From contig CACELK010000001.1 of NCBI GenBank assembly GCA_902560245.1, positions 34,959 through 98,958 of the forward strand: DNA of 64,000 bases, written 5' to 3'. Shown piece by piece: positions 39,962-43,107 of the stretch; positions within the stretch are counted from its first letter, which is position 1, and every line of letters starts with the position of its first letter. Source of the stretch: an uncultured Pelagibacteraceae bacterium. Its GTDB lineage: Bacteria; Pseudomonadota; Alphaproteobacteria; Pelagibacterales; Pelagibacteraceae. Both the position numbers and the translations under genes were made by a program. The notes below the pieces were generated by a model that saw nothing but the letters and a program-made list of their open reading frames with translations, ran no database searches and was not told the DNA's origin.

Positions 39962-39967
39962 TTGACA
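39962..39967 (+). promoter_or_regulatory. Possible -35 box upstream of the ffh leader RNA
   Basis: A perfect TTGACA lies 19 bases before the start of the structured ffh leader. No well-spaced -10 box follows: TATTAT at 39979 is only 11 bases away. The promoter is therefore uncertain, but a start near 39985-39991 would put the whole RNA structure in the transcript. Confidence 0.3.
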
Positions 39968-39985
39968 TTTTGAACCTCTATTATA

Positions 39986-40083
39986 GGTTATCGGAATTTC
40001 CGCAAATACAGCTTTTTGCGGTGTCTTTGGAAACAAAGAGATCGACACCAGTCAGCGAGGGTTCGCCCACTGGTGCGATAGCT
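39986..40083 (+). ncRNA. Structured ffh leader RNA (cis-regulatory candidate, 'ffh motif' type)
   Basis: The 159-base gap before ffh contains a GC-rich block that folds into a multibranched RNA. The closing stem pairs GTTATCG (39987-39993) with CGATAGC (40076-40082). Inside are CCGCAAA/TTTGCGG (40000-40021), a hairpin TCTTTG-GAAA-CAAAGA (40024-40039) with a GNRA tetraloop, and CACCAGT/ACTGGTG (40046-40075) capped by GGG-TTCG-CCC. Segment GTGTC/GACAC could form an alternative pairing. A structured element before the SRP protein gene was described in Pelagibacter by a marine RNA-motif study (Meyer et al. 2009, recalled from memory); this probably is that motif. It is not the SRP RNA, as the conserved apical loop is missing. 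Confidence 0.8.
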
Positions 40084-40096
40084 GCTGGATGAAATT

Positions 40097-41455
40097 ATGT
40101 TTGAAAATTTGACAAATAAATTTGAAGAAGTTTTTTCTTCTCTAAAGAAAGCACCTTCACTTGATGAAAAGCAAGTTGATGAGGGTATGAGAGGTATTAG
40201 ACAAGCCTTATTAGAAGCAGATGTATCTCTAGATGTTGCTAAAAATTTCATTGAGAGCGTTAAACCAAAAGCGCTAGGTCAACAAATAATTAGATCTACG
40301 TCACCCGGCCAAATGGTTATCAAAATAGTTTATGATGAGCTAGTTAAATTACTAGGTGAAAAAAATGAAGAAATTAACTTAAATGCTGTTCCTCCAGTTC
40401 CAATGATGTTAGTAGGACTTCAGGGTTCAGGAAAAACAACTACTACAGCTAAACTAGCTAAATTTTTAGAAATTAATAAAAAAAAGAAAATTATGATGGT
40501 CAGTCTGGATGTTTATAGGCCAGCTGCACAAGAACAATTAAAATCTCTAGGTGAACAAAATAATATAATAACATTACCCGTCATTGAAGGACAATTACCT
40601 GCAGATATATGCAGACGAGCAATGAGCGCTGCTAATTTAAATGGATCAGAAATAATTTTATTCGATACAGCGGGTAGAACACAAATTGATCTTCAAATGA
40701 TGAGTGAAATTAAACAAATAGAAAATATAATTAAACCTTCAGAAACATTTCTTGTAGCAGATTCTCTCACTGGTCAAGTAGCCGCCGAGGTAGCAAAAGA
40801 ATTTAAAAATACTGTAAATTTAACTGGAATAATTCTAACTAGAGCAGATGGTGACGCGAGAGGTGGAGCAGCTGTTAGTATGAAATATGTATCACAGGTA
40901 CCAATAAAGTTTTTGGGAGTAGGAGAAAAAATAGATAATATTGAAGTATTTCATCCGGATCGTATTGCAAACAGAATTTTAGGTATGGGTGATGTTGTTT
41001 CTTTAGTAGAAAAAGCAGCTCAGGACCTTGGAGAAGAAAATATTAAAAAAGCTGAGGAAAATTTAAAAAAAGGACAATTTTCATTAGAAGATTATTTAAC
41101 TCAATTAAGACAAATGAAAAAAATGGGAGGAATAGAAGGTGTTATGTCTTTTTTACCTGGTGTTTCTAAAATTAAATCTCAAATGGACGCTGCAGGAGTT
41201 GATGAAAAAATTATAACTAAAAATGAAGCAATAATATTATCTATGACTAAAAAAGAAAGAGAAGATCCAAAAATAATTAATGGATCTCGAAAAAAAAGAA
41301 TTGCTAATGGCTCTGGAACTGATGCAGCCACTATCAATAAATTGCTAAAGCAATTTAAAATGATGTCTGAAATGATGAAAAAGATGTCAAAAGGAAATCT
41401 GAAAGGTATGACTGACAAAGGAATACCGCCAGAGCTTTTTAATCAATTAAAATAA
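40097..41455 (+). CDS. ffh: Signal recognition particle protein Ffh
   Basis: A 452-residue SRP54-type GTPase. The NG domain shows GLQGSGKTTTTAKLA, SLDVYRPAAQEQLKSLG, LFDTAGRTQIDLQMM and LTRADGDARGGAAVS, the last a variant of the usual TKLDGDARGG found also in other alphaproteobacteria. The methionine-rich M domain binds SRP RNA and signal peptides (FLPGVSKIKSQM, SRKKRIANGSGT, FKMMSEMMKKMSKGN). It is preceded by the structured leader at 39986-40083, followed by rpsP 13 bases on, and faces away from dapF. Confidence 0.97.
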   Translation: MFENLTNKFEEVFSSLKKAPSLDEKQVDEGMRGIRQALLEADVSLDVAKNFIESVKPKALGQQIIRSTSPGQMVIKIVYDELVKLLGEKNEEINLNAVPPVPMMLVGLQGSGKTTTTAKLAKFLEINKKKKIMMVSLDVYRPAAQEQLKSLGEQNNIITLPVIEGQLPADICRRAMSAANLNGSEIILFDTAGRTQIDLQMMSEIKQIENIIKPSETFLVADSLTGQVAAEVAKEFKNTVNLTGIILTRADGDARGGAAVSMKYVSQVPIKFLGVGEKIDNIEVFHPDRIANRILGMGDVVSLVEKAAQDLGEENIKKAEENLKKGQFSLEDYLTQLRQMKKMGGIEGVMSFLPGVSKIKSQMDAAGVDEKIITKNEAIILSMTKKEREDPKIINGSRKKRIANGSGTDAATINKLLKQFKMMSEMMKKMSKGNLKGMTDKGIPPELFNQLK

Positions 41456-41468
41456 TGAAAGGTAAAAA

Positions 41469-41885
41469 ATGTTAAAGTTAAGATTATCAATGGGTGGAAC
41501 AAAAAAGAGACCAGTATATAAAATAGTTGTTGCGGATAGTAGATTTTCAAGAGATGGAAGATTTATAGAAAAACTTGGTTTTTTTAATCCTTTATTACCA
41601 AAAGATAAAAAAGAAAGGGTTGGTTTAGAAACAGATAGAATTAAATATTGGTTAGGACAAGGAGCGCAGCCTACAATTAGAGTTGCGAGAATTCTTGGAG
41701 AAAATCAATTAATGCCAATGCCGGCAAAAGGTAATAATCCACAAAAAGCCATACCTAAGAAGGATAGAAAGAAAAAAGATGAAAAAGCTGCTTCAGGTGA
41801 AGCACCTAAGGAAGAAGCAAAAAAAGCAGAAGCACCTAAGGAAGAAGCAAAAAAAGCAGAAGCACCTAAGGAAGAAAAAAAATAA
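41469..41885 (+). CDS. rpsP: Ribosomal protein bS16 with repeated acidic/basic tail
   Basis: A 138-residue S16. The N-terminal 80 or so residues are the normal protein ([52 protein letters not shown]). The C-terminal tail, about 45 residues rich in Lys, Glu, Ala and Pro, contains the repeating unit [10 protein letters not shown]. It is encoded by a 30-base tandem repeat (41799-41877). Such tails vary among alphaproteobacteria. An AAAGG-type Shine-Dalgarno sequence precedes the ATG. It is followed 3 bases later by trmD; rimM, usually between them, is absent. Confidence 0.96.
41799..41877 (+). repeat. 30-base tandem repeat in rpsP
   Basis: GAAGCACCTAAGGAAGAAGC followed by AAAAAAAGCA makes the 30-base unit. 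Two identical copies (41799-41828 and 41829-41858) and a partial third of about 18 bases (41859-41877) lie in the 3' end of rpsP and code for [10 protein letters not shown] in frame. Exact identity implies recent slippage or duplication. Confidence 0.95.
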
Positions 41886-41888
41886 TTT

Positions 41889-42575
41889 ATGTGGCAAGTA
41901 CAAGTATTTACTCTTTACCCCGAAACTTTCCCTGGTCCATTATCAAAAGGACTTTATGGAAAAGCTTTAGAAAAGAAAAAATGGAATTTAAAAGTTGTAA
42001 ATATAAGAGATTCTGCTGAGGATAAACACAAAACTGTTGATGATGCACCTTTTGGCGGAGGTGCTGGAATGCTTTTAAAAGCAGATATTTTAGCAAAGTC
42101 TATTGATAATAATTTGAAAGATGAAAGTAGAATTTTTTATTTATCTCCAAAGGGTAAAAAATTTGATCAAAAATTTGCAAAAGAACTTTCTAAAGAGAAA
42201 TCAATCAATTTAATTTGTGGAAATTTTGAAGGTGTAGATGAAAGGATTTTATCTACAAGAAATATTGAGGAAATAAGTATTGGAGACTTTATTTTATCCG
42301 GCGGCGAGTCAGCTGCTTTTGTGATAATTGACTCAATTTTAAGATTAATTCCTGGTGTACTTGGAAATGACTTATCTAAACAGGATGAAAGCTTTGAAAA
42401 CGGTCTTTTAGAATATCCCCAGTATACTAAACCACAGATTTGGGAGAAAAAAGCTGTTCCAGATGTATTATTATCTGGAGATCATGCTAAAATTAAAGAC
42501 TGGCGTTTGTCTCAATCTGAGGCTATAACACGCGTCCGAAGACCAGATTTATGGGAAAAATATAAAAAGAACTAA
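41889..42575 (+). CDS. trmD: tRNA (guanine-N1)-methyltransferase
   Basis: A 228-residue SPOUT methyltransferase that methylates G37 of tRNAs reading CNN codons, using SAM. The sequence has [89 protein letters not shown] (trefoil-knot SAM site) and YPQYTKP ... [12 protein letters not shown]. Length is normal. It sits in the classic rpsP - trmD - rplS order, although rimM is missing. Confidence 0.97.
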
Positions 42576-42591
42576 ATTGATAAACACTATA

Positions 42592-43107
42592 ATGAAAACT
42601 ATAGAAGAAATTAATAGATCAAATGTTAAAAAAATTCAGGCTGAAAAAAAGCTGCCTCAATTTTTTCCAGGAGATATTATCAAAGTAGGAGTTAGAATAA
42701 CTGAAGGAAAAAGAGATAGAATTCAGTATTTTGAAGGTGTGTGTATCGCTAAGAAAAGTCGAAATATTAATTCATCATTTACAGTGAGAAAGATTTCTTT
42801 TGGAGAAGGTGTTGAACGAACTTTTGCTTTGTATAGTCCTATTGTTGACTCAATTAAAGTTATAAGATCTGGAGAGGTAAGAAGAGCTAAATTATATTAT
42901 TTAAGAGACAGAACTGGAAAATCTGCGAGAATAGCTGAAAAAATAAGAAAAAATATAGGAATTGAAGTAAATGTTAAAAGCGAAACAACAACTGAGGAAA
43001 ATTTACAGCAGACTGAAGTAAAAAATGATATAAAAGAGAATGAGCAAGAGAAAATTAAAGAGGAAACTTCAAAAAATAAAGAAGAAAGTTTAAAAGAAAA
43101 AAAATAA
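42592..43107 (+). CDS. rplS: Ribosomal protein bL19 with extended charged tail
   Basis: The track ORF starts at a TTG (42577). I chose the ATG at 42592, giving [11 protein letters not shown] and 171 residues. The core (to about residue 120) is typical L19: [80 protein letters not shown]. The C-terminal 45-50 residues form a Glu/Lys/Asn-rich, probably disordered tail, making the protein longer than the usual 115-130 residues. L19 lies at the 30S-50S interface. Confidence 0.95.

Follow-up and report, generated by a model that had tools for sequence, protein, structure and literature searches.

The ffh RNA motif of Alphaproteobacteria as a candidate ribosomal-protein leader of the rpsP operon

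What does the structured RNA in front of ffh, the gene of the SRP protein, respond to? Working from Pelagibacter, Meyer et al. 2009 (PMC2704228) drew it as one bulged hairpin ahead of ffh that covaries convincingly and holds two C residues that hardly ever vary. They detected its transcript in marine metatranscriptome small-RNA data, did not find the motif in Rhodospirillales or Caulobacterales, noted no likeness to the part of 4.5S RNA that is bound by Ffh, and left its function open. Rfam has listed the family for years as RF01793, typed as an sRNA; no function is attached to it, and its name suggests a role in protein targeting. Our search for experiments on the motif in the literature found only the 2009 study and a Mesorhizobium prediction table. 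A preliminary description of the stretch of DNA analyzed here (64,000 nucleotides, hereafter the window) placed a structured RNA at 39986-40083, directly ahead of ffh, and proposed that it might sense SRP RNA or Ffh itself.

Rfam matches only two families in the whole window, RF01793 ('ffh') and RF00005 (tRNA). With 56.7 bits the RF01793 match clears the gathering score of 35, which bears out the proposed identity with the motif of Meyer et al., and its end at 40083 lies 14 nt ahead of the ffh ATG at 40097, as first described. With gene names assigned from the protein sequences, the locus is laid out as follows.

40031-40083, forward strand: Rfam RF01793 'ffh' match
40076-40096, forward strand: spacer of 21 nt, without a U-run, from hairpin P3 (below) to the ffh start codon
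40097-41455, forward strand: ffh, the first operon gene in SAR11 (ORF of 452 aa)
41469-41885, forward strand: rpsP, ribosomal protein S16 (ORF of 138 aa)
41889-42575, forward strand: trmD (ORF of 228 aa)
42577-43107, forward strand: rplS, ribosomal protein L19 (ORF with a TTG start)

The true start of rplS is probably an ATG a few codons inside the ORF. Upstream of ffh, dapF and ftsY lie on the opposite strand. Elsewhere the operon headed by the motif reads ffh-rpsP-(rimM)-trmD-rplS; rimM is absent between rpsP and trmD in the window. The S16 encoded here has a tail of repeats, of low complexity and rich in A, E, K and P; one member of the PS1 family described below has an S16 whose low-complexity tail differs, being rich in A, P, E and V.

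We compared the element across 159 loci from SAR11 and other Alphaproteobacteria; the loci behind our models were gathered with RF01793 and share its bias towards the last hairpin, P3. The claim of a structured RNA was confirmed by folding: positions 39986-40083 reach -39.4 kcal/mol, where shuffles average -24.1 (z -4.7) and none of 200 does as well. Three consecutive hairpins make up the fold, and all three form also when folding begins at the predicted transcription start.

40000-40021, forward strand: hairpin P1, CCGCAAA / TTTGCGG, covarying
40024-40039, forward strand: hairpin P2, TCTTTG-GAAA-CAAAGA, covarying
40046-40075, forward strand: hairpin P3, the covarying core, CACCAGT / ACTGGTG with inner stem GCGA / TCGC

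Covariation backs P1, P2 and P3 alike. Two-sided changes occur at all seven modeled pairs of P1 (75 distinct sequences) and all six of P2, in both cases on an alignment fitted to the model, and these two hairpins keep their shape while their sequence varies. Across P1-P3 together, two-sided changes are seen in 20 of 24 pairs and 97.6% of cells are paired, a figure that leans towards the structure because the alignment was fitted to it; slid controls give ~40%. P3 shows two-sided changes at 11 of its 12 pairs (77 distinct sequences), with a covariation score of 0.445 versus 0.155 in shuffles, and sliding its partner strand by a single column lowers the pairing from 94% to 25-31%. Within P3 the mismatch C53.C68 is C.C in 79 of 80 unique sequences and the inner stem GCG/CGC is near-invariant, while the position beside the mismatch (A54.C67) is mostly A.C and also occurs as C-G, A.A, G-U and U-A. 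A basal extension of P3, AUCG/CGAU, was set aside as lineage-specific, its inner three pairs being present in about half of the sequences or fewer.

The preliminary description had made the standing of the element depend on covariation in its stems; the three hairpins covary strongly, and the element stands. So does its hairpin with a GAAA loop, which is P2. The GGG-UUCG-CCC cap that had been drawn on another hairpin is excluded by the covarying pairing GCGA/UCGC, which leaves the loop GGGU. As for the proposed switch through GTGTC/GACAC, the extended pairing GGTGTC/GACACC is complete in all 39 close SAR11 relatives and in none of 19 other sequences, and is thus confined to the genus.

The hairpins had also been described as enclosed by a seven-pair stem in a multibranched element. 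Only the three hairpins survive from this picture; the closing stem is unconserved and coincides with a predicted promoter.

39962-39967, forward strand: -35 element TTGACA of the predicted leader promoter, invariant in the SAR11 alignment
39984-39989, forward strand: -10 element TAGGTT, its TA invariant in the SAR11 alignment
39986-39993, forward strand: 5′ arm of the claimed closing stem, which would pair with 40076-40083; not upheld as a conserved helix

The minimum-energy fold shows the stem with eight pairs rather than seven, and the helix itself is unconserved even within SAR11: all of its pairs are kept by only 2 of 39 close SAR11 sequences and by none of the 19 others, its cells pair in 54% of cases over these 58 sequences (a level reached by 499 of 500 shuffles), and its covariation, the score of which all 500 shuffles reach, is lower than that of shuffled columns. 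Because its 5′ arm overlaps the -10 element, this arm should lie upstream of the transcript, which is predicted to start near 39996. The promoter, TTGACA-N16-TAGGTT in the window, has the 16-nt spacer seen in SAR11. TTGAC is found no more than 130 nt upstream of P3 in 136/136 unique loci, and the fuller pattern TTGAC-N15-19-TA in 130 of the 136 versus ~5 in shuffles, with TAGTTT and TAGGTT as the commonest -10 boxes. Judged from this comparative pattern, on which the claim rests, the putative leader promoter is conserved across Alphaproteobacteria; a generic promoter scan of the window called no promoter, because the -10 element is far from consensus.

To follow the motif beyond the reach of RF01793 we trained a broader covariance model, R2, on 77 sequences. 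Of 385 alphaproteobacterial genomes, R2 is positive in 240, most of the genomes surveyed being drafts, and RF01793 in 106; the latter thus misses more than half of the motif family. Counted over the class rather than by order, positive genomes are more than twice as many with R2, which may bear on the absences from Rhodospirillales and Caulobacterales reported by Meyer et al. Across a 398-genome sample of the phylum all R2 matches are alphaproteobacterial except a marginal one (G795, E 9e-4), which has neither ffh nor rpsP nearby and was taken as chance.

Wherever it could be checked in Alphaproteobacteria, the motif is tied to the rpsP operon. Motif and rpsP share a contig in 74 genomes, and in all 74 rpsP follows the motif in the same orientation, normally behind ffh; in three more genomes the two are on different contigs. 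To check R2 hits or their neighboring contig we fetched 39 loci, and ffh followed by rpsP was found in all 38 that are alphaproteobacterial. Conversely, 75 of 80 named rpsP loci carry the motif, with ffh within 400 nt in 69, ffh further downstream in three, and the motif before rpsP in the remaining three, which belong to PS1. Four genomes of one family, f24 (G122, G254, G352 and G431), have a gap of 3.3-5.1 kb between motif and rpsP with ffh beside the motif; other genes appear to have been inserted between ffh and rpsP.

The PS1 family (f51; 18 genomes), to which named marine bacteria of the PS1 clade and the 'OCS116 cluster' belong, separates the motif from ffh. Four of its genomes place the motif before a gene starting MSVKIRLARGG or MAVKIRLARGG, which is rpsP, as confirmed by tblastn and PF00886. 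Gene order matches the window except that ffh is missing: dapF lies divergently upstream and, in loci read far enough, trmD and rplS come downstream. RF01793 exceeds its gathering score in 14 of the 18 genomes, and in these as well as in the three named loci the motif always stands directly before rpsP. None of the four genomes has a match to Ffh (TIGR00959), and none of the 18 has the SRP54 GTPase domain, which covers both Ffh and FtsY, above the cut-off (14 of 14 controls were positive); the search left one sub-threshold match of 41 residues. A search for SRP RNA was likewise negative in all 18, even at E<=1. Missing contigs do not explain these absences, since SecY is present in all six of the near-complete genomes of the family. 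Thus, this marine family appears from its genomes to have lost the SRP pathway, a loss that, should a closed genome confirm it, would be remarkable in bacteria that are not known to be tied to a host. Its P3 hairpins are nonetheless fully paired in all nine distinct forms, with the C.C mismatch intact and two pairs varying by compensation, so the hairpin appears to be still under selection. The evidence probably reflects one loss event in one clade, and it indicates that the motif is independent of Ffh and SRP RNA.

In bacteria, control of a ribosomal-protein operon commonly runs through a 5′ leader to which one of the encoded proteins binds. The motif sits 5′ of a ribosomal-protein operon in many genomes (the 74 genomes and 38 loci above), and it stays with the ribosomal-protein genes where ffh has been lost, as seen in one clade only. 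Because it persists where neither Ffh nor SRP RNA was found, and rpsP invariably follows it, the element is read most simply as a leader that controls this ribosomal-protein operon, presumably by autoregulation; the probability of a ribosomal-protein leader we put at about one half. S16 would be the preferred ligand, because rpsP is the first ribosomal-protein gene after the leader and the very first gene in PS1, although we hold its binding, proposed from gene order, with somewhat less confidence than the leader itself. According to this proposal, the ffh-rpsP-trmD-rplS operon would be transcribed from its own conserved promoter with a 5′ leader of consecutive hairpins P1-P2-P3; once S16 (or a different ribosomal protein encoded there) is in excess over free rRNA, it would bind this leader, most likely at P3 with its invariant C.C mismatch, and the bound leader would lower expression of the operon. 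Leaders of this kind often, though not necessarily, resemble the rRNA site of their protein, and a comparison of the motif with E. coli 16S and 23S rRNA, the sole rRNA compared, gave no rRNA-like site above chance; a match of UCAGCG in 16S helix 17 is short and within chance and was dropped.

How the bound leader would act may differ among lineages. P3 ends 21 nt before the ffh ATG in SAR11 without a U-run, for which reason the bound protein would there most simply block loading of the 30S subunit, a steric block of translation. How far P3 lies from the first start codon differs from lineage to lineage, so a single direct translation block cannot be the mechanism everywhere. Outside SAR11 and PS1, a U-run of at least four follows P3 in 35 of 87 loci versus 4.3 expected, and in none of 45 SAR11 leaders. 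P3 together with such a U-run resembles an intrinsic terminator, and in many other Alphaproteobacteria it may act as a conditional one. We offer, more tentatively again, the wider proposal that RF01793 is misnamed and represents an S16 (or L19) leader found throughout Alphaproteobacteria, which would place Ffh synthesis under ribosomal-protein control with an output that differs by lineage (translation block in SAR11, conditional termination at P3 in many others). If true, the supply of SRP protein would be tied to ribosome production through one leader in most Alphaproteobacteria.

One competing explanation keeps the leader and changes its ligand. Since nearly all genomes carry the genes of L19 and TrmD in this operon as well, the genetics used here cannot separate those two proteins from S16, and rplS and trmD lie downstream in every locus read far enough, PS1 included; they are the last genes of the operon, however, and it is rpsP that comes to stand nearest the leader once ffh is gone, which makes either of them an unlikely ligand. 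RimM is unlikely too, because the operon has no rimM in the window or, judging by spacing, in one PS1 genus. Alternatively, the ligand could be the product of the adjacent ffh, as the preliminary description had it: Ffh unbound by 4.5S RNA would bind the leader and repress ffh, or free SRP RNA would be sensed. The position of the motif immediately ahead of ffh in most Alphaproteobacteria speaks for this idea, as does the string GUCAG that the 5′ strand of P3 shares with SRP RNA helix 8; against it, the opposite strand appears to lack the loop residues of SRP RNA. Meyer et al. (PMC2704228) saw no likeness to the Ffh site, and the motif persists, with compensatory change, in PS1 bacteria in which neither Ffh nor FtsY nor SRP RNA was detected. 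We consider sensing of Ffh or SRP RNA highly improbable.

There are two further explanations. The RNA might act in trans as a transcript of ~80-100 nt ending at P3, with ffh or rpsP transcribed by read-through; the strong conserved promoter, the U-run in 35 of the 87 loci, and the transcript in the metatranscriptome small-RNA data of Meyer et al. (PMC2704228) all fit such a molecule. However, the 45 SAR11 loci have no U-run, attenuation would also yield short transcripts, and the motif is confined to this operon in every genome checked, a linkage that a trans-acting RNA does not need; we give this explanation little weight. The other would be a passive 5′ untranslated region whose hairpins, without any ligand, stabilize the mRNA or serve as a processing site. 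Hairpins at the 5′ end often do stabilize mRNA, and the way in which P1 and P2 hold their shape through sequence change would suit this role, but the invariant C.C mismatch and the near-invariant GCG/CGC inner stem of P3 exceed what stability needs, and we think a passive role improbable. The preferred reading, a ribosomal-protein leader, with S16 or L19 binding P3, lends itself to a direct test, since the natural deletion in PS1 separates the RNA from ffh.

Compared with the published and Rfam structure of RF01793, the element described here shares the position before ffh, a bulged covarying hairpin and two opposed near-invariant C residues. It differs in that the known structure is one hairpin, whereas P1, P2 and a promoter precede it here and are conserved. 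SRP RNA (4.5S; RF00169), the partner RNA of the protein encoded beside the motif, is a separate molecule: the Rfam search of the window gave no RF00169 match at the element, and among 101 relatives searched SRP RNA was matched in 76, at a separate locus. That the motif is a diverged SRP RNA was rejected, as relatives have SRP RNA elsewhere and the motif outlives its loss. RF00169 is unmatched in the source genome, which is 84% complete, and SRP RNA scores below threshold in several members of the source genus; the missing match probably reflects the incomplete assembly or a diverged SRP RNA. A near analog is the S16 leader candidate of Flavobacteria, a structured RNA upstream of rpsP proposed by Eckert and Weinberg 2020 (PMC7247131) to bind S16. 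We liken the two by position and proposed ligand and claim no common origin. The Flavobacteria candidate belongs to another phylum and stands directly before rpsP-rimM, without ffh.
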